In this document: positions 38,417 through 54,066 of the stretch, in pieces | How positions within the stretch are numbered: the stretch's first letter is position 1 | Layout of the letters: each line of letters begins with the position of its first letter | From: Natrinema hispanicum | GTDB lineage: Archaea > Halobacteriota > Halobacteria > Halobacteriales > Natrialbaceae | Assembly: GCF_900111485.1 (NCBI RefSeq) | Contig: NZ_FOIC01000002.1 | Coordinates: 1 to 64,000 of the forward strand | Length of the DNA: 64,000 bases | Direction: 5' to 3' | Made by a program: the position numbers and the translations under genes | Notes under the pieces: generated by a model | The model's database searches: none | What the model was told of the DNA's origin: nothing | Seen by the model: the letters and a program-made list of their open reading frames with translations, nothing else

Positions 38417-39121
38417 CTAATAGAACGCGGACACCGCGAGGATGACAGCGAGACCGAGGACGGGATAGTCGACTCGCGAGAACGCAAGCGCCGGGAGCGT
38501 GGGGTTCCACGCGAAACACCGCGCCCGCAGCGCGAGCGAGAGTCGGTCAGCCCGATCGAACGCGCGCGCGACGCCGAGCATGCCGATCGTGCTGGCGCGG
38601 TCGACCACGCCGCGTTCAGTTCCCAGCCGGGCGGCCATCGCTTCCCGGATCGTCCGCAGATCGCCACGGAGGACGGGGAGAAACCGGAAGACGAGCCCGA
38701 CGCCAACGCCGAGGAGCTGTCCCGGCTTGCCGGGGATCGTCCGCTGGATCGCCGCTCGAGAGTCACGTACCGGCGTCGATCGGACATAGGCGGCGCTGAC
38801 GAGCAGGATAAGCAGCACCCGATAGCTCGCCAGCCCCGACGCAACGGCGGCCGATCGGTCGAACCAGGGTGGGCCGACGGTGACACCCGCGAGCAGCGGC
38901 GCGAGCGCGAGGACGACCAGCGCGAGCCGGTAGGAGACGAGGGTCCGTCGGAGCGACAGCCGCGCTGTGGCCATCGCGACCGCCGTCAAAGCCGAGAAGG
39001 CGATGAGCGCACGCGGCGTCGTATGCGCCAGCGCGGTGGCGGCGAATCCGATCTGGACCGCCAGCTTGGCTCGCGGATCGAGCCGGTGTGCGAGGCTTTC
39101 GTCTGGTTCGTAGGTCAGCAT
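38417..39121 (-). CDS. Energy-coupling-factor transporter transmembrane protein (EcfT/BioN)
   Basis: A 234-residue membrane protein with about five helices. It begins MLTYEPDESLAHRLDPRAKL (the conserved HxLDPRxKL segment) and carries the two coupling motifs with Ala-Arg-Gly-like sequences, MAARLGT and LRARCFAW, that contact the ATPase. With EcfA and BioY it forms an ECF importer. It overlaps ecfA by seven bases. The BioY partner shows that biotin is the substrate of this module, hence also called BioN. Confidence 0.85.
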   Translation of the reverse strand: MLTYEPDESLAHRLDPRAKLAVQIGFAATALAHTTPRALIAFSALTAVAMATARLSLRRTLVSYRLALVVLALAPLLAGVTVGPPWFDRSAAVASGLASYRVLLILLVSAAYVRSTPVRDSRAAIQRTIPGKPGQLLGVGVGLVFRFLPVLRGDLRTIREAMAARLGTERGVVDRASTIGMLGVARAFDRADRLSLALRARCFAWNPTLPALAFSRVDYPVLGLAVILAVSAFY

Positions 39122-39828
39122 CGTGTGGTATCCGGTACGCGTACCTCGAGTCCGTCGAGTTCGGCCAGTGCGTCCGCAGGCGGGCCATCGACGGCGACGC
39201 GGCCGTCGTGCATGGCGATCACCCGGTCGGCAAGTTCGCAAACGTCCCGAAGATCGTGGGTGGCAAGCAGGACGCCGGTGCCGTCGGCTGACAGCGACGC
39301 GAGGCGCTCGAGAACCGAGCGGCGCGCGGGAGCGTCCAGGCCAGTAAATGGTTCGTCGAGGACGAGGTGGGTCGGCTCCATGGCGAGCGCGCCGGCGATC
39401 GCCACGCGGGACTGCTCACCGCCTGAGAGCGCGTCGATACGCTCGTCTTCGCGGCCGGCCATGTTCACGGTCTCGAGTGCGGCCGTGACGCGGCGGTCGA
39501 TCTCCGCGCGGTCGAGCCCGAGGTTTTCGGGGCCGAAAGCGATGTCCTCGCCGACGGTTGCGGCGACGAACTGGTCGCGCGGGTGCTGGAAGACCATGCC
39601 GACGCTCGAGCGGGCGGCGATCAGGTCCTCGGCGACCGGCGTTCCGTCGACGAGCACCTCGCCGGAGTCGGGCTCGAGGAGGCCGTTGGAATGGCGCAAC
39701 AGTGTCGTCTTCCCGCTGCCGTTTGCTCCCGCCAACAGGACGAACTCGCCGGCGTCGATCGACAGCGAGACGTCCTCGAGGACGGGGACATCGTCGAACG
39801 CGTGGGAGACAGATCGAAACTCGATCAT
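39115..39828 (-). CDS. Energy-coupling-factor transporter ATP-binding protein (EcfA/BioM)
   Basis: A 237-residue ABC ATPase: Walker A GANGSGKTTL, Q-loop VFQHPRDQFV, signature LSGGEQSRVAIAGALA, Walker B HLVLDEPFTGLD and H-loop LATHDLRD. It powers uptake through EcfT and BioY. The signature reads LSGGEQSR, as in other ECF ATPases (LSGGxxQR type). The start at 39828 begins the first strand (MIEFRSVSHAF); upstream codons are not family-like. It overlaps ecfT at its 3' end, and bioY lies 25 bases upstream. Confidence 0.9.
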   Translation of the reverse strand: MIEFRSVSHAFDDVPVLEDVSLSIDAGEFVLLAGANGSGKTTLLRHSNGLLEPDSGEVLVDGTPVAEDLIAARSSVGMVFQHPRDQFVAATVGEDIAFGPENLGLDRAEIDRRVTAALETVNMAGREDERIDALSGGEQSRVAIAGALAMEPTHLVLDEPFTGLDAPARRSVLERLASLSADGTGVLLATHDLRDVCELADRVIAMHDGRVAVDGPPADALAELDGLEVRVPDTTRC

Positions 39829-39853
39829 CGCTGCTGTGTAAGCTGGGGACCGG

Positions 39854-40435
39854 TCATGTGGCGATACGTTCGGCCTCGACGATGGCAACCACGGCCGCGA
39901 TCTTGATGAGATCGCCCGGAATAAACGGCACGACGCCGATTTCGATCGCTTTGACTGTGCTGAGTTCGAGAACGTACCCGAGCCAAGCGGCCCCGAGCAG
40001 GTAGATAACGGTCAGCGCCGCGAGTAGCGTCACGACGAGGACCGGCCGCGACAGGTCGGCGGGATCACCGTCTTCGCTCAGCCGGTGGACAACGGCTCCA
40101 ATCAACAGCGCCGCGGTCGGATACGACCAGAGATAGCCGGCGCTGTTGCCGACGAGGACCCCGAGTCCGGAGGCACGTTCGGCGAAGATGGGGAGTCCGA
40201 CCGCGCCGGCAGTTAGGTACAGCAAGAGCGAGAACGCTCCCCAGTACGGGCCGAGGTAGAGTCCCGCGAGATAGACGACGATCACCCCAAGCGATATCGG
40301 TATCGGCGAGAACGGGATCGGGATTGACCCGACGAAGACGGCCGCCCCCATCAGCGCTGCGAGGACGGCTGCCCGTGCGAAAGGCTTGACGACATCGTCG
40401 TCAACGAGTTCGACTGAATGCTGATCCGTTGCCAT
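39854..40435 (-). CDS. bioY: Biotin transporter substrate-binding protein BioY
   Basis: A 193-residue S-component with six membrane helices. The N-terminal helix (AAVLAALMGAAVFVGSIPIP), IPISLGVIVVYLAGLYLGPY and the late GVVPFIPGDLIKIAAVVAIV with the conserved FIPGDLIK are BioY signatures. It binds biotin with high affinity and hands it to the EcfA-EcfT module encoded downstream. The ATG at 40435 starts the protein; the preceding DNA at 40448-40479 matches the BirA operator. The organism probably uses imported biotin, since no biotin synthesis gene is seen in this window. Confidence 0.9.
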   Translation of the reverse strand: MATDQHSVELVDDDVVKPFARAAVLAALMGAAVFVGSIPIPFSPIPISLGVIVVYLAGLYLGPYWGAFSLLLYLTAGAVGLPIFAERASGLGVLVGNSAGYLWSYPTAALLIGAVVHRLSEDGDPADLSRPVLVVTLLAALTVIYLLGAAWLGYVLELSTVKAIEIGVVPFIPGDLIKIAAVVAIVEAERIAT

Positions 40436-40447
40436 ACCTCCGCTCTC

Positions 40448-40479
40448 TCGTAAACCAGGATGAAAACTTCGGTTTCCGA
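40448..40479 (-). promoter_or_regulatory. Candidate BirA operator upstream of bioY
   Basis: The plus strand reads TCGTAAACC, 14 bases, GGTTTCCGA. The consensus described for BirA in bacteria and archaea is TTGTAAACC-N14/15/16-GGTTTACAA; 8 of 9 and 7 of 9 positions agree and spacing is exact. It lies 13 to 44 bases before the bioY ATG, where the promoter should be. The BirA at 47699-48637 has the needed DNA-binding domain. Confidence 0.65.
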
Positions 40480-40673
40480 GACGAGGTATGAGCGGACCGA
40501 CATGTCCTTGCAAGCGATCACCGGCTCAGTACCTAGAATCGGCGCGAAACAGGATGCTTCCTCTCAGCGTCACTGGCAGTTTCGATCGACCCACGACACG
40601 TCAGCGACGGCAGGTTCGAGCGTCAATCGGCTGTCTACGACCGTCGAACGCACAACGGGCCATAGTAATAGCT

Positions 40674-40741: not shown

Positions 40742-40849
40742 ATGAGTCGTCTGCGTTCAGAGCCGAGACGGGGCGAAATCGGGGACTGTCCGAAGGAGAG
40801 TGAGCAGGCGTTCGCAGATTGGGAGGTGCCGACAGATGAGACGGATTGA
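40742..40849 (+). CDS. 35-residue leaderless ORF coupled to the giant secreted-protein gene
   Basis: The ATG at 40742 opens MSRLRSEPRRGEIGDCPKES and EQAFADWEVPTDETD, ending at TGA 40847-40849. A TATA box at 40708-40716 puts it at the very 5' end of the transcript. Its end overlaps the start of the 1683-residue protein by 14 bases, and a Shine-Dalgarno-like GGGAGGTG lies inside it. Acidic composition and codon use look haloarchaeal. It may be a functional micro-protein or a device coupling translation. Confidence 0.5.
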   Translation: MSRLRSEPRRGEIGDCPKESEQAFADWEVPTDETD

Positions 40850-43800
40850 GACGAACGCGGCTGTCGTTGTACTGCTTTCGGCCGCGCTGGTCGGCAGCGC
40901 GATGGCGCTGCCGCTGCTGGGCGGAACCGGCGGGCGAGTCGTCAGCGACGAGGCGGCCACCGAAGCGGCCGCCGGGGCACCGGCCACACTCGAGCAGGCC
41001 GTCGTCCAAAACGACTCGCAGCCCACTGCCGAGTCCGAACTAGTGACCTTCGATCAGGAGGCGACGGCTGACGGTGGAACCGAGCAAGTGACGGGCCAGG
41101 AAACCACTGCAGCCGTCGAGGCCGGCGTCGCGGAAGGTGTCGACCTCGCTCAAGCCCAAGGTATCGAAGTGACACAGGAACAGCGAACGGCGGCGCTCGA
41201 GGCCGCTCAGTCGGCAGTGCAGCAGTATCAAACCGTCGAGGCCGAGCAGGTGCAGGCGGCGACGGCAGGGGCCGTCCACGGCTCGCTGATCCAGTCACAG
41301 TCGGTCAACGTGACCCAGATTCAGTCCGCAGTCAGCGGGGCGACCGACGGCGCGCTCTCACAGTCCCAGTCGGCGAACGTGACCCAACTCCAGAGCGCGA
41401 CGTGGGGCGCGGCACACGGGGCGCTCGCCCAGAGCCAGCGCGTCAGCGCCGAGCAGATTCAGGTCGCGAGTCGGGGCGCGGCTGCAGGTGCCACGCGAGA
41501 AGCAGGGGTGAACGATATCGGCAAGGCACCACACGTACAGGAAGCCGCCCAGGGCGCGGCCTACGGTGCGCTGACGCAATACCAGTCAGTCACGGCCGAG
41601 CAGCGCCAGCGAGTCACCCTCGAGCATGTCCAGCACGCGGCCGCCGGGGGTGCAGCCGGCGCGCTCGCAGGGAGTACACGCGCAGTCCTCACACAGGAAC
41701 AGCGCGTTGACGTCGAGCAGCGCCAGCGGGTAACGATCAAGCAGGTCCAGAAGGTCGCAGCAGGGGCGGCAAAAGGCGCGCTCGTCCAGGAGCAGTCAGT
41801 CTCGGTCGAGCAGACGCAAGCCGCCGCTCGCGGGGCCGGACGCGGCGCGCTGACACGGGTCCAGCGCATCAGTATCGAGCAGCGCCAGCGGATTTCGATC
41901 ACGCAGGTGCAGGAAGCCGCCTTCGGCGCGGCGAAGGGCGCGATTTCGCAGAGTCAGGAGGCGACCGTCGAACAGATTCAGGCCGCCGCTGCCGGGAGCG
42001 CGGGCGGCGTGCTCGTCCAGCGCCAGTCGATCTCGGTTTCGCAGATCCAGTACGCCGCAGTCGGTGCCGCTGAGGGTGCAGTCACGTCCGCGATCCAACG
42101 TCAAGCAGTGACGATTGAGCAGATTCAGGCGGCGGCGTTCGGTGCTGGCGAGGGTGCAGTAACCCAGACGCAACTCGTCGAGGTGACGCAAGTCCAGCGC
42201 CTCGCAGCCGGTGGTGCAAGCGGTTCGCTCGTTCAGGCACAGTCGGCGACAGTCACGCAGATCCAGACGGCAGCCCAGGTCGCCACGCAGGAGACGGCCC
42301 AACTCGTCCAATCCCAACGAATCAGCATCACGCAACTGCAGACGTTGACCCAAGAGGCCGCAGCCGAGGCGACCGCCTACGCGGTGGACGAAGACACCAA
42401 CGACGTGACCCAAATCACCCAGCGCGTCACGGTCATCATTGAACAGCGGATCGAAACGATCGACCGGCTCGAGGGGACAGCATCGATCGACTTCCCTGAC
42501 CAGGAGTCGACCGGTGAGCAAGTCACTATCGCGAACGTGTCGCTCTCGGAGGGCGGGTTCGTCGCGGTCTACGACAGCGCAGACACCGACCCGGACGGCG
42601 TCGTCGGCGTCTCCGACTATCTCGAGCCGGGAGACCACCAGAACGTCACGATCGACCTCGACGAGCCGCTCGCGGCCAGCGGCACGCTCGTGGCGGTCCC
42701 ACATCACGACACGAACGACGACGAAACGTTCCAGTACGTCGACGCAGACGGCGAGGTGGACGTGCCATACGTCACCGGTGCTGGCGCGCCGGTGAGCGAC
42801 AGCGCGGTCGTGACGCTCACAGACGACACCGATGCTGACGAGACCGACGCGACGCTGTCGGTCTCGGACCAGGAAGGCAGCGGCGAGACGCTCACTGTCG
42901 ACGAAGCGAACGCGTCCGTCCCCTACACCGTCACCGCGTCGTACGACGGTGAGACGGTCACAAGCGACACGTTCGCTGCTGGCGAGGCAATGACAGATCT
43001 CTCGCTCGAGCTAGAGCCACCGATCGAAGAGAACACCTCCGTCAACGTCTCCGTAGTCGGCGAAGACGGTGCCACGCTCGCGACCGAGACCGTCGGGTAT
43101 ACCGTCGTGAACGATACCACCGACGACAGCCCCGAAGTGTCGCTGTCGGTCGACAACCAGACCGGTGACGGCGAAACGCTGACGATCGACGCGGCGAGTG
43201 CGTCGGTTCCGTACGTTCTCGCGGCTGAGTATAACGGAGAGCGTGTCACAAGCGACACGATCGAGGCGAACGCGACGGTCGCAGCCGAACCCCTCGCGCT
43301 CGAGCCGCCGATCGAGGAAAACACCACCGTCGACGTCTCCGTACGCGCCGCGGCCGACGACGCGGTGCTGGCAAACGACTCCATCGAGTACGCGGTCGAG
43401 GAGCCGGAACCCGGGGAGCCGACGGCGAATCTCACGGTGGCCGATCAGGTCGGTGACGGCGAGACACTGACCGTCACACAGGCGAATGCGTCCGTCGCGT
43501 ACGCCATCACCATCACCGACGAGGACGGGACCCAGCTCGCAGCGAGTGAGGTCTTCACTGCAAACGAGACGATCGGTCCCGAGGAGTTCACGCTCGAGCC
43601 GCCGCTCGAGGCGAATGCGACGCTCGAGGTGGCGGTCGTCACGGCCGATGATGGGACGCCCATCGAGACGGCGAGCGTCGAGTACACGGTCGACGGCCCG
43701 CCGCCGGGATTCGACGTGGAGTTTACGAGCTGTCAGCGCGCAGAAGTCACTGCGTCGCTTGCGGAAGGTGACTCGGTCGCCGCCAGTACAATATTCTACG

Positions 43801-45887
43801 CACCCGGCGGCGTCGGCAACACCATCGTGGAAGACATCGTCACCGCCGGTGACGAGATTCCGGCACCGTACAATGGAACGATCGTCTTCGAAATCGGCGA
43901 CGAGCGCCGTGTCACGACAGAGGGCGAGCAGGTGCTCGTCGAAGTGCCAGATTATGGCTCCTTCGGGACGTACATCTCGGGGATCAGTTCGCCCGAAGCG
44001 GCACCGATCGGCAGCATCGACTATCCGAACTTGTTGGAGGGGTGTGACGAAGAGATACGACCCGAACGGCCGTCGATCGCGGTCGAAGAGACGACGCCTA
44101 CCGAGGATGGCATCGACGTGACGTTCAGCTACGAGAACCCGAACGACGCCCCGTTGGGCTCGTCCAGCCGATTCGTCGAGGGCACCACGACAGCCGAGCC
44201 GCCATCCGAGTTCGAGCCGGGCCAGCACACGTTCACCGTCGAGTGGACGCCCGAGAGCGACGACGAACGGCTCGTCTGGGAGGCCGACTTCTCGACGTTC
44301 GGGTACGAGGAGCCACTCACCGCCGCGACACCGCCCGCCGGCGAGCTCGAGCCGTCCGAGCCTGCAACGTTCGGCGTTTCGATTACAGACTCCAACAGTC
44401 CGGTCGTGCAGGGTGAGCCACTCGAGGTCGATGCCGAAATCGGAAACGTCGGCGGTGAAAACGGGACCCAGACCGTCTCGCTGGCGATCGACGGGACCAC
44501 CGTCAACGAAACGTCGGTCTCGCTTGCCCCCGGCGACAATCAGACGGTTTCGTTCACTGCAGCAACCGATAATCTCGAGCCCGGCGAGTACCCGCTGTCG
44601 GTATCGACTGCAAACGAGACGGCAGAGACGGTAGTGACTATCGAAGAACCAGCGGAACCAGCGGCGTTCGGCGTTTCGATCACCGGCACCAACAGCCCAG
44701 TCGAGCAAAGCGAACCGCTCGAGGTCGATACCGAAATCGAGAACGTCGGCGGTGAGAACGGGACGCAAAACGTCTCGCTCGCGATCGGCGAAACACCCGT
44801 CGACGAGCAATCAGTCACGCTTGCGCCCGGCGAGACGCAATCCGTGCCGTTTACCGTCCCAACTGATGCGCTCGAGCCCGGCGAGTACCCGATCACGGTG
44901 GCGACCGAAAACCAGACGGCAGAGGCCACGATCACCGTTACGGAGCCCGGTGAGCCCGCAACCTTCGGCGTCTCGATCGACGGGACGAACAGCCCAGTCA
45001 TCCCGGGTGAACCGCTCGCAGTCGAAGCCACCCTCGAGAACGTCGGCGACCGCGCGGGGACACAGGACGTCGAGATTGCCGTCGGCGGTACCGCCGGTGA
45101 GACGACGGCAGTGACGCTCGGCCCGGGCGAGTCGCGGACGATCACGCTGAATTATGAGACGGCGGATCTCGAACCAGGTGAGTATCCGCTTACCGTGTCG
45201 ACCGAAAACGAGACGGCGGAGACGACGGTGACCGTCGAAGAGCCGGCGACGTTCACCATCGCCGACGTGACAGCGCCCGAAACCGGCCAGCCCGGCGATG
45301 AGGTGACGGTAAGCGCGACGATCGAAAACACCGGTGACCGCGAGGGTACCCAGACGGTGATCTACGCGATCGACGAACAGGTCGTCGATGAGTCGTCCGT
45401 GACGCTTGCAGGCGGAGATACAACGACGGTTTCGTTCACGACCCAGTTGCCGCCGGGAACGTCGACGCATACGATCGCGACCGACGACGATCAGGCATCA
45501 GTGACGATCGAGGCGGTTCCGGCAGATGGCGGGGGTGCGGACGGAAACGGTGAGACGGGGCCGGACGGTGGACCCGAGACACCACCCGAACCCCCGACCG
45601 AACCGGTGCCGCCGCAGCAGCCCGAAGCGCCTCAACCACCAGAGCCCGAACCGCCGCAGCCACCTGAGCAACCACCCGAACCGCCAGAACCACCGCAACC
45701 ACCCGCGGAGCCACAGCCAGAGACGGTGCCAGCCGGGCCGGGTGATGGCGGCACAGCTGAGGCCACCGACGGTGGGGCAGGTGACACGACTGCTGGCCAA
45801 GGGACCGGGGCAGCCGACGGCGATACGGCCGGAGCCGCCGCTGACGGGACGACTGGCAGCGAAAACGAGACGAGCGGTGCTGGCTAG
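40836..45887 (+). CDS. Giant secreted repeat protein (Gln-rich repeats, CARDB-like domains, Pro-rich tail)
   Basis: A 1683-residue protein starting MRRIETNAAVVVLLSAALVG, a signal peptide or anchor. Residues about 120-548 hold some 13 repeats of a 23-residue unit of the form (S/R)QxxxVxQIQxAAxGAAxGALxQ, predicted amphipathic helix with Gln stripes. A DUF7282-like beta-domain (about 549-665) and three related repeats of about 95 residues (669-955) follow. A unique domain (956-1172) holds the only two cysteines (FTSCQRAE and LEGCDEEI). Then come four CARDB-like repeats (1172-1565), a Pro/Glu segment and a Gly/Ala/Thr-rich end. No C-terminal membrane helix or PGF motif is seen. It is probably an extracellular adhesive or structural protein; the exact role is unknown. 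Confidence 0.8.
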   Translation: MRRIETNAAVVVLLSAALVGSAMALPLLGGTGGRVVSDEAATEAAAGAPATLEQAVVQNDSQPTAESELVTFDQEATADGGTEQVTGQETTAAVEAGVAEGVDLAQAQGIEVTQEQRTAALEAAQSAVQQYQTVEAEQVQAATAGAVHGSLIQSQSVNVTQIQSAVSGATDGALSQSQSANVTQLQSATWGAAHGALAQSQRVSAEQIQVASRGAAAGATREAGVNDIGKAPHVQEAAQGAAYGALTQYQSVTAEQRQRVTLEHVQHAAAGGAAGALAGSTRAVLTQEQRVDVEQRQRVTIKQVQKVAAGAAKGALVQEQSVSVEQTQAAARGAGRGALTRVQRISIEQRQRISITQVQEAAFGAAKGAISQSQEATVEQIQAAAAGSAGGVLVQRQSISVSQIQYAAVGAAEGAVTSAIQRQAVTIEQIQAAAFGAGEGAVTQTQLVEVTQVQRLAAGGASGSLVQAQSATVTQIQTAAQVATQETAQLVQSQRISITQLQTLTQEAAAEATAYAVDEDTNDVTQITQRVTVIIEQRIETIDRLEGTASIDFPDQESTGEQVTIANVSLSEGGFVAVYDSADTDPDGVVGVSDYLEPGDHQNVTIDLDEPLAASGTLVAVPHHDTNDDETFQYVDADGEVDVPYVTGAGAPVSDSAVVTLTDDTDADETDATLSVSDQEGSGETLTVDEANASVPYTVTASYDGETVTSDTFAAGEAMTDLSLELEPPIEENTSVNVSVVGEDGATLATETVGYTVVNDTTDDSPEVSLSVDNQTGDGETLTIDAASASVPYVLAAEYNGERVTSDTIEANATVAAEPLALEPPIEENTTVDVSVRAAADDAVLANDSIEYAVEEPEPGEPTANLTVADQVGDGETLTVTQANASVAYAITITDEDGTQLAASEVFTANETIGPEEFTLEPPLEANATLEVAVVTADDGTPIETASVEYTVDGPPPGFDVEFTSCQRAEVTASLAEGDSVAASTIFYAPGGVGNTIVEDIVTAGDEIPAPYNGTIVFEIGDERRVTTEGEQVLVEVPDYGSFGTYISGISSPEAAPIGSIDYPNLLEGCDEEIRPERPSIAVEETTPTEDGIDVTFSYENPNDAPLGSSSRFVEGTTTAEPPSEFEPGQHTFTVEWTPESDDERLVWEADFSTFGYEEPLTAATPPAGELEPSEPATFGVSITDSNSPVVQGEPLEVDAEIGNVGGENGTQTVSLAIDGTTVNETSVSLAPGDNQTVSFTAATDNLEPGEYPLSVSTANETAETVVTIEEPAEPAAFGVSITGTNSPVEQSEPLEVDTEIENVGGENGTQNVSLAIGETPVDEQSVTLAPGETQSVPFTVPTDALEPGEYPITVATENQTAEATITVTEPGEPATFGVSIDGTNSPVIPGEPLAVEATLENVGDRAGTQDVEIAVGGTAGETTAVTLGPGESRTITLNYETADLEPGEYPLTVSTENETAETTVTVEEPATFTIADVTAPETGQPGDEVTVSATIENTGDREGTQTVIYAIDEQVVDESSVTLAGGDTTTVSFTTQLPPGTSTHTIATDDDQASVTIEAVPADGGGADGNGETGPDGGPETPPEPPTEPVPPQQPEAPQPPEPEPPQPPEQPPEPPEPPQPPAEPQPETVPAGPGDGGTAEATDGGAGDTTAGQGTGAADGDTAGAAADGTTGSENETSGAG
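41200..42470 (+). repeat. Tandem 69-base coding repeats (glutamine-rich 23-residue unit)
   Basis: About 13 degenerate units with CAG-rich ends, such as QSQSVNVTQIQSAVSGATDG, RQAVTIEQIQAAAFGAGEGA and TQLVEVTQVQRLAAGGASGS. Spacing is 23 residues in most units, with a few units longer. Nucleotide identity between units is low, so the array is old and kept by selection on the protein rather than by recent duplication. Confidence 0.75.
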
Positions 45888-47698: not shown

Positions 47699-48637
47699 TC
47701 AGACAGGACGCAGATGCTCACAGTCACCTGCTGAGACCGTCTCCCGGCCCTCGTCGGTCTCGACCACGAGCGCACCCGATTCCGTCACGTCGACTGCGTC
47801 CCCGACTACTTCACCCGACGGGCGATCGACCCGGACGTGCTGTCCGAGCGTATGCGATAGGTCGCGCCACGCCGGGACGATGGCCTCGAGGTCGTTGCGG
47901 TAGTGGTCGAACTCCTCTAAGAACCGCTGGACGAAGCGACGCCGATCGACGTCGCCGGCCTCGTCACGGATGCTGGTTGCACCTTCCGGGAGCGTGTCGG
48001 CGTCGATATTCGCGTTGACGCCGACGCCGACGATGATCCACTCGACGCGATCCATCTCGCCTTCCATCTCCGTGAGAATCCCCGTGAGCTTCCGGTAGTC
48101 GCCCTCGTCGCCAACCGGGACGACCACGTCGTTCGGCCACTTGATCTGGGCGTCGACGCCTGCCTCTCGAGCCGCCGTCGCCGCCGCAACCGCCGACGCG
48201 AGCGTATAGAGCGGTGCCTGTGCGGGCGTGATCTCGGGTCGGGAGATGACGCTTACCCAGACACCACCCGACGGTGCGGTCCACTCTCGCTCGAGGCGGC
48301 CGCGGCTGCCGACCTGTTCGTCTGCGAGGACGGCCACATCCGCTGCGCCGTCGGCGGCGAGTTCGCGGGCCCGATCGTTCGTGCTCCCCACGGCGTCGTG
48401 ATACTCGATGGAAAACGGGGCCTCGAGTCCGAACTCGACTGCCGGCCCGTTGTACGCCGTCACCTCGCCGAGTTCGTAGCCGTTCGATCCGCTCTCGATG
48501 TCGAAGTCGGCGTCGCGTAACGCCTCGATGTGTTTCCAGACCGCCGCCCGTGAGATGTCGAGCGACTCGGCCAGTTCCGGTCCCGATACCGGCCCGTCGG
48601 CGAGCGCCTCGAGGACCGCTCGTCGCGTCTCGTTCAT
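47699..48637 (-). CDS. birA: Biotin-protein ligase with N-terminal repressor domain (BirA)
   Basis: A 312-residue BirA. Residues 1-60 form a winged helix (LEALADGPVSGPELAESLDI, SRAAVWKHIEALRDADFDIE) that allows operator binding. The catalytic domain has GSRGRLEREWTAPSGGVWVS (biotin-binding GRGRxxRxW), the lysine motif KWPNDVVV and the dimerisation part; a C-terminal SH3-like domain follows (VRVDRPSGEVVGDAVDVTES). It attaches biotin to carboxylase subunits and, with biotinyl-AMP, should repress the bioY promoter at 40448-40479. It is downstream of and convergent with the UspA gene. Confidence 0.92.
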   Translation of the reverse strand: MNETRRAVLEALADGPVSGPELAESLDISRAAVWKHIEALRDADFDIESGSNGYELGEVTAYNGPAVEFGLEAPFSIEYHDAVGSTNDRARELAADGAADVAVLADEQVGSRGRLEREWTAPSGGVWVSVISRPEITPAQAPLYTLASAVAAATAAREAGVDAQIKWPNDVVVPVGDEGDYRKLTGILTEMEGEMDRVEWIIVGVGVNANIDADTLPEGATSIRDEAGDVDRRRFVQRFLEEFDHYRNDLEAIVPAWRDLSHTLGQHVRVDRPSGEVVGDAVDVTESGALVVETDEGRETVSAGDCEHLRPV

Positions 48638-51159: not shown

Positions 51160-54066
51160 TTACTCGGTGAACGTGATCCAGCCGTCGGGTACCTGCGCTT
51201 TCACGTCGTTCATCGCCTCGCGGGCAGCCGTCCGAGTCTCATAGGTCTGCGTGCTCTCGGCCATTGTCGCGCCGTACTCGTCGATCAGGTGCCAGACCCA
51301 GCCGTCTTCGGCTGTGTGGAGTTCGAACGAGACGCTGTCGATCTCGAGGATACTCGCCGACTCGATCAGGTCGCGAACGTCCGCGAGGGCCTCGCGGGCA
51401 GCGTCGGCTGTCTCGTGGGTTTCGGTGCCCGATGCGACGGTGCGGCCGTCCTCATCAATGAGCCGCCAGCGCCAGCGGTCGTCGTCGTCGGCGACAAGTT
51501 CGAACGAGGCCACGTCGAAGTCAACTCGGCCGGCCAGCGGCGCGAGCTGGCGAATCGTGTCAATCGTCTCGAGCAGGCCGTCTTTGGTGGTGACAGGGTC
51601 GACCGCCTCCGCAATTACCTCGCGATCGCGGTCGACGAGGTCCCACGACCAGCCGTCGTCGCCGTCGAGACGGATCACGGCATCCTCGATCGCGAAGATC
51701 GGCGCGTCGAGCGCGTGTGATTTGAGGAGGGCGACGATGTCGTCCGCTGCGGCACGGTCGGCATAGGAGACGGCTGAATCGGCGATTTCCTCGCGATTAC
51801 GGTCGAGCAGTCGGAACTGCCACTCGTCGGTTCCGTATAGCTGGACGGAGACGTCACCGATCGTGTGGCGGCGGGCCGACGTAGCGGCCTCGCGAATTGC
51901 CTCGAGCCCGTCGATGAGTTCGTCACGGGTGGGAGACGCTTCACCGTCGACGGCGACCGTCTCACCGGTCGGCATGACGAACCGCCAGTGCCAGTCACCG
52001 GTCGCGTACGGCTGGAAGATCGCCCGGTCCATCGTCCGCACGTCCGACTCGAGATGCTCGAGCAGACGGTCCATCGCCTCGCGTGCAGCGCTGCGGGTCG
52101 GATGAGTCGCTGGATCCTCGGCGACGAGCTTGCCGGCCTCGTCGATGAGCCGCCAGCCCCACTCGCCGTCTTCGTTGACAAAGAGTTCGAACGCCGCGGT
52201 CTCGATCTCGAGTAGTTCGGCATCGGGTGCCTGCTCTTTGAGCGTCATCATCGTCTCGGCGGCCTCGCCGCGGGAGGTGTGTTCCTCGCCGGAGTCGGCC
52301 AGCACGTTGCCGTCCTCGTCGATGAGTCGCCAGCGCCATTCGCCGGAGTCGGCCTCGTAGACTTGGAACGCAGCGTTTTCGAACTCGATGAGGTCGGCCT
52401 CGGCCGCCTGCTGTCGGACGCGCTCGATCGCGGCCGTCGCCGTCTCGGCATCAGCGTGGGACACCGTACTCGCCGCGATGACCTCGCGGTCGTCCGTGAC
52501 GAGTCGCCAGTGCCACGAGTCGGCGCTGTCCGCTCTCGGCGCGGCATCCGTGACTGTCCCACCGTCCGGGGCCGGTTCGGGATCCTCGGCCGCCACCGGA
52601 AGCGTCTCGGCTTCGTCGAACGTATACTCGTCACCCGTCGTGTCTGTGGCCGGATACACCTCGTATGCCGCGTCGTCGATCTCGACGATCTCCGCATCGG
52701 CGGCGTTGTCACCGAACTGCTTAGTCCACTCCGTAGCGTCATCGCGGTCAGTCGTCCGCTTAGGACTGCGCGCGACGACATGTTCGGTCTCGTCGACCAG
52801 CCGGTAGCGCCACTCGTCGCCGGACTCGTAGAGTTCGTAGGCAGGTTCGCCGGCGACGGTGACTGACGCCGACTCGAGTTCGGGGAGCAACGCTTCGGCA
52901 GCCCGCTCGGCATCGCGTCGGGAGTCGAACGTGTCGGTGCTGGTGGCAACGACCTCGTCGTCGGCGTCGACGAACCGCCAGCGCCAGCCGTCGGCGCGTT
53001 CACAGAGTTCCACGCCGATGCCCTCGATGTCGAGCACCCGTGCCTGATCGAATCGCTCGGCGAATTTGTGGGCGGCCTCCTCGGCGCGTTCCTGGGTCGT
53101 GTGGCCGGTCTCACTTGAGGCCAGCGGCGTGCGGCTGTCGTCGACCAATTGCCAGTACCACTGGTCGCGCCGTTGCTCGTAGGTAAACGCCGCGTCCTCG
53201 ATTTCGATAACGTCAGCGTCGGGCCCTTCGTCTTTCAGGAAACTCACCGACTTCTCAGCCCCATCGCGTTCGTCGAACTCGCCAGCACAGGCACCGACGA
53301 CGGAACCATCGTCGCGCGCAAGCGTCCACTGCCAGGTGCCGTCGCGGTCCTCGTAGAGGCGAAACGCCGAGGTCGTCAGCTCCATCAGCCCCGCAGAACT
53401 GATCTGTGACTTAACACGCTCGATGCCCGCCGTCGCCTCCGGCCGCGTCACGGCGCTGTCGGTGCTCTGAGCCAGCGCCTCGAGGTGGAGGACGTGCCAC
53501 TTCCAGTCACCGTTTTCGTCGCGGAAGACGGCGAACTGGGCACTTTCCATCGCGTCGCCCGTGAGAATGTCCGGGTCCTCGGTCTGTCCTTCCTCCTCGA
53601 CGAACATACCTTTCCGTCCCGTAAGCACGGGAACGAGCGCAGTCACGCCCGCGATGATGCCGATTCCGAGCGTATAGACCGTAATAACCTCTACACTGTA
53701 GTCCGTGCCCAGCTCTCGCCAATTGTACGGATATGCCCAGCCGAAAAAGCCGATGCCGCCCAGAGAAACGAGTAAGCCGACGACACTGGCCTGAATCCCC
53801 CGCGTTCGTACCGGCAACATAAGGACGATACCGAAGAGGCAGAAAGCGAGCCCCGTTGCCGCCGTGACGCCGGAAAACTTGATCAGCGTATACGAGTTGC
53901 CTTCGCCTGCATACCCAACGACGAACGCAGCGACGCCCGCAGCCCCGATGATGTAGCCGACGATGAACAGCCAGTACCCATAAACGTCCTTGGCCGAGTC
54001 GGGTTCGCCGACGTAATGTTCGTACAGTTGAAACAAATTTTGGTGAATGTCAGTCCAGGAAGCCAT
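51160..54066 (-). CDS. Membrane protein with 13 tandem DUF1508-like repeats (DUF7139-like)
   Basis: A 968-residue protein. Residues 1-150 have about four or five membrane helices (YWLFIVGYIIGAAGVAAFVV, VIAVTALV-like segments) and a cytoplasmic tail follows. From about residue 175 there are 13 repeats of 55-70 residues of the form (A/S)F(E/Q)LYxxxxGxWxWRLxDExGxVIAxS, the DUF1508/YegP or HVO_2922 module, usually found as one or two copies. Tryptophan pairs (WRWR) recur in each. The repeats are separated by acidic helical linkers. This long ladder tethered to the membrane is probably cytoplasmic and may bind a ligand or a partner many times. Function is unknown. Confidence 0.75.
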   Translation of the reverse strand: MASWTDIHQNLFQLYEHYVGEPDSAKDVYGYWLFIVGYIIGAAGVAAFVVGYAGEGNSYTLIKFSGVTAATGLAFCLFGIVLMLPVRTRGIQASVVGLLVSLGGIGFFGWAYPYNWRELGTDYSVEVITVYTLGIGIIAGVTALVPVLTGRKGMFVEEEGQTEDPDILTGDAMESAQFAVFRDENGDWKWHVLHLEALAQSTDSAVTRPEATAGIERVKSQISSAGLMELTTSAFRLYEDRDGTWQWTLARDDGSVVGACAGEFDERDGAEKSVSFLKDEGPDADVIEIEDAAFTYEQRRDQWYWQLVDDSRTPLASSETGHTTQERAEEAAHKFAERFDQARVLDIEGIGVELCERADGWRWRFVDADDEVVATSTDTFDSRRDAERAAEALLPELESASVTVAGEPAYELYESGDEWRYRLVDETEHVVARSPKRTTDRDDATEWTKQFGDNAADAEIVEIDDAAYEVYPATDTTGDEYTFDEAETLPVAAEDPEPAPDGGTVTDAAPRADSADSWHWRLVTDDREVIAASTVSHADAETATAAIERVRQQAAEADLIEFENAAFQVYEADSGEWRWRLIDEDGNVLADSGEEHTSRGEAAETMMTLKEQAPDAELLEIETAAFELFVNEDGEWGWRLIDEAGKLVAEDPATHPTRSAAREAMDRLLEHLESDVRTMDRAIFQPYATGDWHWRFVMPTGETVAVDGEASPTRDELIDGLEAIREAATSARRHTIGDVSVQLYGTDEWQFRLLDRNREEIADSAVSYADRAAADDIVALLKSHALDAPIFAIEDAVIRLDGDDGWSWDLVDRDREVIAEAVDPVTTKDGLLETIDTIRQLAPLAGRVDFDVASFELVADDDDRWRWRLIDEDGRTVASGTETHETADAAREALADVRDLIESASILEIDSVSFELHTAEDGWVWHLIDEYGATMAESTQTYETRTAAREAMNDVKAQVPDGWITFTE

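Follow-up and report, generated by a model that had tools for sequence, protein, structure and literature searches.

A glutamine-rich repeat domain kept by most Natrialbaceae: a candidate solenoid head on an exported, stalked protein

The window analyzed here, a stretch of 64,000 nucleotides, encodes an exported repeat protein of 1683 residues, some 460 of which match no entry of the libraries searched, are kept by most Natrialbaceae and, judged from substitution rates, are under strong purifying selection. We propose, with a probability of about 0.45, that these residues may form a capped, Gln-laddered solenoid head carried on a stalk and acting as an adhesin-like or envelope-binding rod. We infer the beta-solenoid geometry, the capping and the role of the stalk, and can only guess at the ligand and the biological task.

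The reading frame translates to the 1683 residues given by a first-pass annotation of this DNA, and its ATG start codon at 40836 is where the first residues of the orthologues line up (Table 1). The closest matches (83-88% identity) come from Natrinema limicola, N. hispanicum and Haloterrigena sp. H1, all Natrialbaceae, indicating a haloarchaeal source. The protein is predicted to be secreted, as had been annotated: the Sec-type signal is its sole membrane-like segment, and neither a further membrane segment nor a PGF anchor was found after it (best 19-mer past residue 40, 1.01; last 120 residues, -0.14). An acidic linker leads from the signal peptide to the Gln-rich domain, which starts at residue 88. 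The beta-domains that had been placed after the repeats do follow the array, but DUF7282 among them had gone unrecognized; its match is full length (125.9 bits) and over the curated cut-off. The copy number of the Ig-like repeats differs among species. Exactly two cysteines are present, both in the single domain to which they had been assigned, for which a Pfam search gave no match. A further conserved domain (residues 1076-1170) separates it from the CARDB repeats, whose number, four, agrees with the earlier count. Outside the Natrialbaceae, the relatives L061, L083 and L070 have a likely hydrophobic C-terminal anchor (read by eye). The stalk of another relative, L072 (3805-9885), contains many Ig-like repeats and a long series of DxDxDG calcium-binding-like (thrombospondin-3-like) repeats.

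Table 1. Features of the repeat protein and its gene, in window coordinates
Feature	Residues	Position	Strand	Remarks
Whole gene, exported repeat protein	1-1683	40836..45887	+	1683 aa; orthologues align along length
Sec-type signal peptide (A-M-A before LPLLGG)	1 to ~24	40836..40907	+	Hydrophobic 19-mers from residues 8-10; cleavage site by eye
N-terminal cap (putative), conserved AxExGVxEGxxLxQxQGxxVxQxQRxAA	88-130	41097..41225	+	Alignment; low-confidence model has two helices (pLDDT 45-58)
Gln-rich repeat array, 8-residue xVxVxQxQ and 15-residue xAAxGAAxGALxQxQ modules	133-518	41232..42389	+	
N-module with H148, W190, H194, E236, Q239, Y243	133-250	41232..41585	+	42-sequence alignment
Irregular stretch, doubled or tripled 8-residue modules, e.g. 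RAVLTQEQ-RVDVEQRQ-RVTIKQVQ	251-322	41586..41801	+	
C-terminal end of repeat domain	519-548	42390..42479	+	Conserved in Natrialbaceae
DUF7282 (PF23951)	549-660	42480..42815	+	E=1.1e-36
Ig-like repeats	661-955	42816..43700	+	12 N-glycosylation sequons
Two-cysteine domain, ~120 residues	956-1075	43701..44060	+	2 Cys; present in 15/21 orthologues
Four CARDB domains (PF07705)	about 1175-1560	44376..45500	+	Each copy above curated cut-off, 22.7 bits
Pro-rich, acidic, unanchored tail	1561-1683	45516..45884	+	

The Gln-rich repeat is far beyond chance. The identity autocorrelation of residues 81-560 is highest at lag 23 (0.247; maximum over 500 shuffles, 0.171), and further peaks fall at lags 8, 31, 46 and 54. 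The array is built from two modules, S (xVxVxQxQ, 8 residues) and H (xAAxGAAxGALxQxQ, 15 residues), which combine as SH (23 residues) or SSH (31 residues), with a triple S at residues 282-305. There are 13 recognizable A/G modules, which bears out the earlier count of "about 13" units, and degenerate copies lie at either end. The strict 23-residue spacing claimed at first is only partly borne out: 23 dominates, but spacings of 18+8 (=26), 25, 31, 39 and 49 are also present, owing to double or triple 8-residue modules and to variable loops. Among 591 distinct units, a set chosen by pattern and hence biased, Q6 was found in 98%, Q8 in 100%, G13 in 97% and G17 in 98%; in 45 aligned orthologues that were not pattern-selected, the entropies of these positions were 0.24, 0.12, 0.04 and 0.00, respectively. 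The earlier description of a regular, glutamine-striped repeat is thereby supported. The distance from Q8 to the glycines is rigid, with both glycines in 427 of 574 anchors and the first one shifted in 3, and indels of 2-5 residues fall after G17-A18-L19, as at a turn. In the pattern-selected set, position 7 is I/V/L in 89% of units, though it lies on the outer phase, and position 3 is S/T/N/D in 84%.

Searches of Pfam, NCBIfam, PHROG and the PDB gave no match to the Gln-rich domain, which the first-pass annotation had likewise failed to recognize, and the literature, searched for the domain, for DUF7282 and for glutamine-rich repeats in haloarchaea, yielded nothing about the domain. A profile built from eight orthologues detected the family in 111 of 391 Halobacteria genomes, comprising 84 of the 101 Natrialbaceae and 27 of the 290 others; it was absent from every sampled member of two Natrialbaceae genera (g5 and g19). 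A broader sample of the phylum gave 20 positives, all within the same order, and as far as tested the family is confined to Halobacteria. In its most divergent member, L084 (7581-9905), most outer residues are replaced by Asn (NQNVNINVILNAALGAAQGA). When used as the query, L084 recovered 110 of the 391 genomes, identical to those of the profile bar one, and since the reciprocal searches yield the same genomes the family is coherent. Asn takes up nearly the whole variable (outer) phase of L084, and its inner Gln is partly Val or Leu, giving N/Q ladders; its units vary in length between 21 and at least 25 residues. As a family, the Gln-rich head is separate from the DUF7282 and CARDB domains of the stalk; some homologues, such as L062, have neither of these. 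Some relatives are shorter and have what appear to be twin-arginine (Tat) signals (L073, 8562-10229; L074, 8098-9141; L080, 7215-9818), in some cases next to a full-length copy of that genome (G116, G144). L074 has QSQSVDVSQSQ motifs close to its C-terminus too. A mobile-element origin was rejected: viral contigs gave pattern matches only and none encodes a relative, a phage search returned no relative, and a plasmid search returned two records, both non-mobilizable haloarchaeal replicons.

In nearly all sampled Natrialbaceae loci the gene lies between bioY and DUF7545/DUF5799, which is not so in other families. In the window, the repeat gene lies between bioY with ECF transporter genes (cbiO and cbiQ-like), at 38417-40513, and a gene for a birA-like biotin ligase/repressor, at 47699-48637, making this a biotin uptake neighborhood. 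The neighbors bioY, cbiO, cbiQ, DUF7545 and DUF5799 are conserved in Natrialbaceae on the strand opposite to the repeat gene. This orientation and the missing linkage in other families led us to reject an operon or partner-gene link in favor of shared ancestry; the synteny is consistent with vertical inheritance, and its conservation with biotin transport genes gives no hint to function. Farther along, at 51160-54066 on the reverse strand, a 968-residue protein combines an N-terminal DUF7139 membrane domain with at least five tandem DUF1508 repeats, an array of about a dozen copies by eye and unusually long.

The domain has the character of a fixed unit. Of the 45 orthologous domains, most have a length of 452-476 residues, and units at the same position in different species are 76% identical while those at different positions are 46% identical. 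Units are therefore kept individually rather than homogenized, and, with the near-constant length, this indicates a fixed domain and not a drifting array. The dN/dS of the domain (0.10-0.23) was the lowest or near-lowest among the regions of the protein in each comparison. The near-fixed number of repeats and the conserved flanks at both ends would favor a discrete rod over an open-ended fiber; the fiber, adhesin and matrix roles offered in the first-pass annotation were guesses. The net charge of the domain is -0.02 per residue here and averages -0.043 over 46 homologues, whereas the remaining, C-terminal part of these proteins stands at -0.236. Near neutrality outside a halophilic cell suggests a surface that may be tightly self-packed or covered by ligand.

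The pattern of variability bears on the fold. Among the 45 orthologues, variability is greatest at positions 20, 22, 1, 3 and 9, and positions 19, 21, 23, 2, 6, 8 and 10 are conserved. Variability alternates with period 2 over 13 residues (positions 20 to 9; power 0.60 at 180 degrees, permutation p ~0.004), and these orthologues gave no 100-degree (helix) periodicity in the Gln/Val half. Variability of period 2 is the signature of a beta strand, and the alternation thus points to a strand in the Gln/Val half with the inner face L-Q-Q-V-V-Q-Q-A. In the A/G stretch (positions 11-18) the orthologue set gave p 0.07-0.10 for a period-2 strand and p 0.14-0.17 for a 100-degree helix. Only this half could be helical, and we do not claim helix periodicity for it because variability of ~100 degrees was significant solely in the pattern-selected units (p 0.015-0.035). 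Structure prediction returned strands, but at confidence too low to use: AlphaFold reached a pLDDT of 29.9 for the full domain with 8 alignment rows and 38.7 for seven units with 17 rows (26-29 in the other models). A Foldseek search with the seven-unit model returned insignificant matches throughout (E>0.1), mostly beta-helices, which we do not count as evidence. A well-behaved solenoid often models at better confidence. Given these low-confidence models, a solenoid is put forward as most likely the geometry of the domain.

Part of the outer face is conserved. The first ~175 residues of the domain were aligned across 42 divergent homologues, leaving out the short Tat-exported paralogues L073, L074 and L080. 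Near-fixed residues of the exposed phase were H194 (39/42), E236 (38/42), Q239 (38/42) and H148 (35/42), and an aromatic residue or His is found in 40 of the 42 at position 190 and in as many at 243. The entropies of H194, E236, Q239, aromatic 243 and H148 are 0.4-1.0 bits, the exposed-phase mean is 2.0 bits, and the patch positions are variable in other rungs. The N-module that carries these residues is the portion of the repeat domain best conserved across families, and in 45 closer orthologues E206, E325, R257 and K302 are nearly fixed as well. The putatively outward-facing cluster of H148, aromatic 190, H194, E236, Q239 and aromatic 243 is a new observation of this analysis. Near-fixed exposed residues of this kind suggest that the N-terminal third of the putative rod has a specific function.

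We hypothesize that the protein is Sec-exported and stalked and would be found at the cell surface or outside the cell. Its head (residues ~88-548) would be a capped solenoid with some 15 rungs. The alternating strand residues Q21-Q23-V2-V4-Q6-Q8 of every rung would point inward and stack into Gln ladders that flank a ladder of Val, and each rung would be closed by a tight stretch of Ala and Gly (A10 A11 x G13 A A x G17 A L). The acidic Ig/CARDB/Pro-rich part would serve as a spacer that keeps the head off the cell, and the exposed patch on rungs 2-6 may bind a constant ligand, for example, a metal ion or a polysaccharide of the envelope or matrix. A more tentative proposal is that the domain has a novel solenoid fold, in which a Val ladder lies between Gln ladders and a GxxxG-type Ala/Gly segment makes the return, that it is built from 8- and 15-residue modules with the number of rungs fixed at ~15, and that it carries a His/Glu/aromatic ligand or metal site and serves as a widespread and hitherto undescribed surface device of Natrialbaceae. 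Several observations weigh against the solenoid rod: neither AlphaFold model gives a reliable structure, the A/G half clearly fits neither strand nor helix, the hydrophobic position 7 sits on the outer phase, and single extra 8-residue modules fit poorly into a regular coil.

It is possible, although in our view unlikely, that the domain is a functional amyloid which polymerizes end to end into a cross-beta matrix fiber, as curli CsgA and FapC do. The repeat of CsgA has a period of ~23 residues, which the period here resembles. Curlin units bear Q/N ladders on strand-turn-strand repeats of 22-23 residues; of these traits, the Gln spacing and the 23-residue period were observed here. The near-neutral charge despite exposure to high salt and the existence of the Asn-rich L084 also fit, and fibrils of FapC (E 0.48) and CsgA (E 5) are among the insignificant Foldseek matches, which, however, come from a low-confidence model. 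Imperfect repeats with conserved Asn/Gln networks are a hallmark of bacterial functional amyloids (PMC12822426), and the imperfect repeats and conserved Gln network of this domain match it. However, the number of repeats is nearly fixed, the flanking segments are conserved at both ends, the protein is a multidomain one of 1683 residues rather than a small subunit, and the adjoining genes include no export or nucleator partner. The curlin profile of Pfam matched neither the repeat domain of 8 members (E up to 10) nor L084 (E up to 0.1). Because both ends and the repeat number are nearly fixed within a large multidomain protein, a ligand-binding rod is favored, and a fiber is less likely.

A beta-alpha solenoid, in which each Q/V strand is followed by a short A/G helix packed via GxxxG much as in leucine-rich repeats, would serve the same rod and is about as improbable as the amyloid. 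The invariant GAAxG spacing and the S/T/N/D preference at position 3, a typical helix cap, would suit it, as would the ~100-degree signal of the pattern-selected units, but that signal fades in the unbiased orthologues, both low-confidence AlphaFold models lack a helix in the A/G part, and a Pfam search gave no leucine-rich repeat match. Somewhat less probable again is a structural protein associated with the haloarchaeal envelope or S-layer that has no specific ligand. Its presence in 84 of 101 Natrialbaceae genomes, the strong purifying selection and the large stalk all speak for such a protein; the sampled Natrialbaceae proteins, however, lack a membrane anchor, whole genera lack the gene, and the conserved exposed patch suggests a specific interaction. 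The helical solenoid or coiled-coil fiber of the first-pass annotation can be largely set aside, since the high Ala and Gln content and the hydrophobic i, i+3/i+4 stripe V4-I7-A11-A14-A18 are countered by the period-2 variability and beta-branched V/I/T of the Q half, by a period of 23 with 8-residue inserts that fits no coiled-coil period (heptad or hendecad) and by the Asn/Val-rich L084 (NQNVNINVILN).

If the head is a beta-solenoid, it would show in a structurally simple case how a Gln-rich sequence can build something ordered and bounded outside the cell instead of aggregating without end, and can do so at high salt though it lacks the usual acidic surface. The His/Glu/aromatic patch provides named, mutable residues in an otherwise unknown surface protein. 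A staining study of Haloferax volcanii biofilms reported a putative amyloid and named one candidate gene (PMC4180959); the Gln-rich family is a further kind of amyloid candidate in the haloarchaea carrying the gene.

The family shares features with several known systems. As in the functional amyloids CsgA and FapC, the repeats are short and imperfect, Gln/Asn networks are conserved and the protein is exported, but the near-fixed length, conserved ends, stalk domains within 1683 residues, Ala/Gly-rich return segment and restriction to Halobacteria set it apart, and neither matched the domain in sequence. The sheath protein SH of Methanospirillum hungatei is likewise archaeal and extracellular and was described as amyloid-like, rich in beta strands and furnished with a cap domain, whereas it forms antiparallel beta-arches polymerized into rings, and no such repeat is described there (PMC10593813). 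Beta-solenoid adhesins such as EtpA and SRRP are rod-shaped, secreted beta-helices used for adhesion, a fold and a role only proposed here; they differ in coil length, in sequence and in their two-partner or accessory secretion, and no homology was found. The protein perhaps works in the manner of these adhesins or of the Gln/Asn ladders of curli, but by the tests made here it is a member of neither group. Leucine-rich repeats also have units of 20-30 residues, a polar ladder and possibly a strand plus a helix, whereas the present repeat has no Leu framework and a ladder of Gln, not Asn. With the DUF7282/CARDB surface proteins of haloarchaea the protein shares the domain families of its stalk, but not the separate family of its Gln-rich head.
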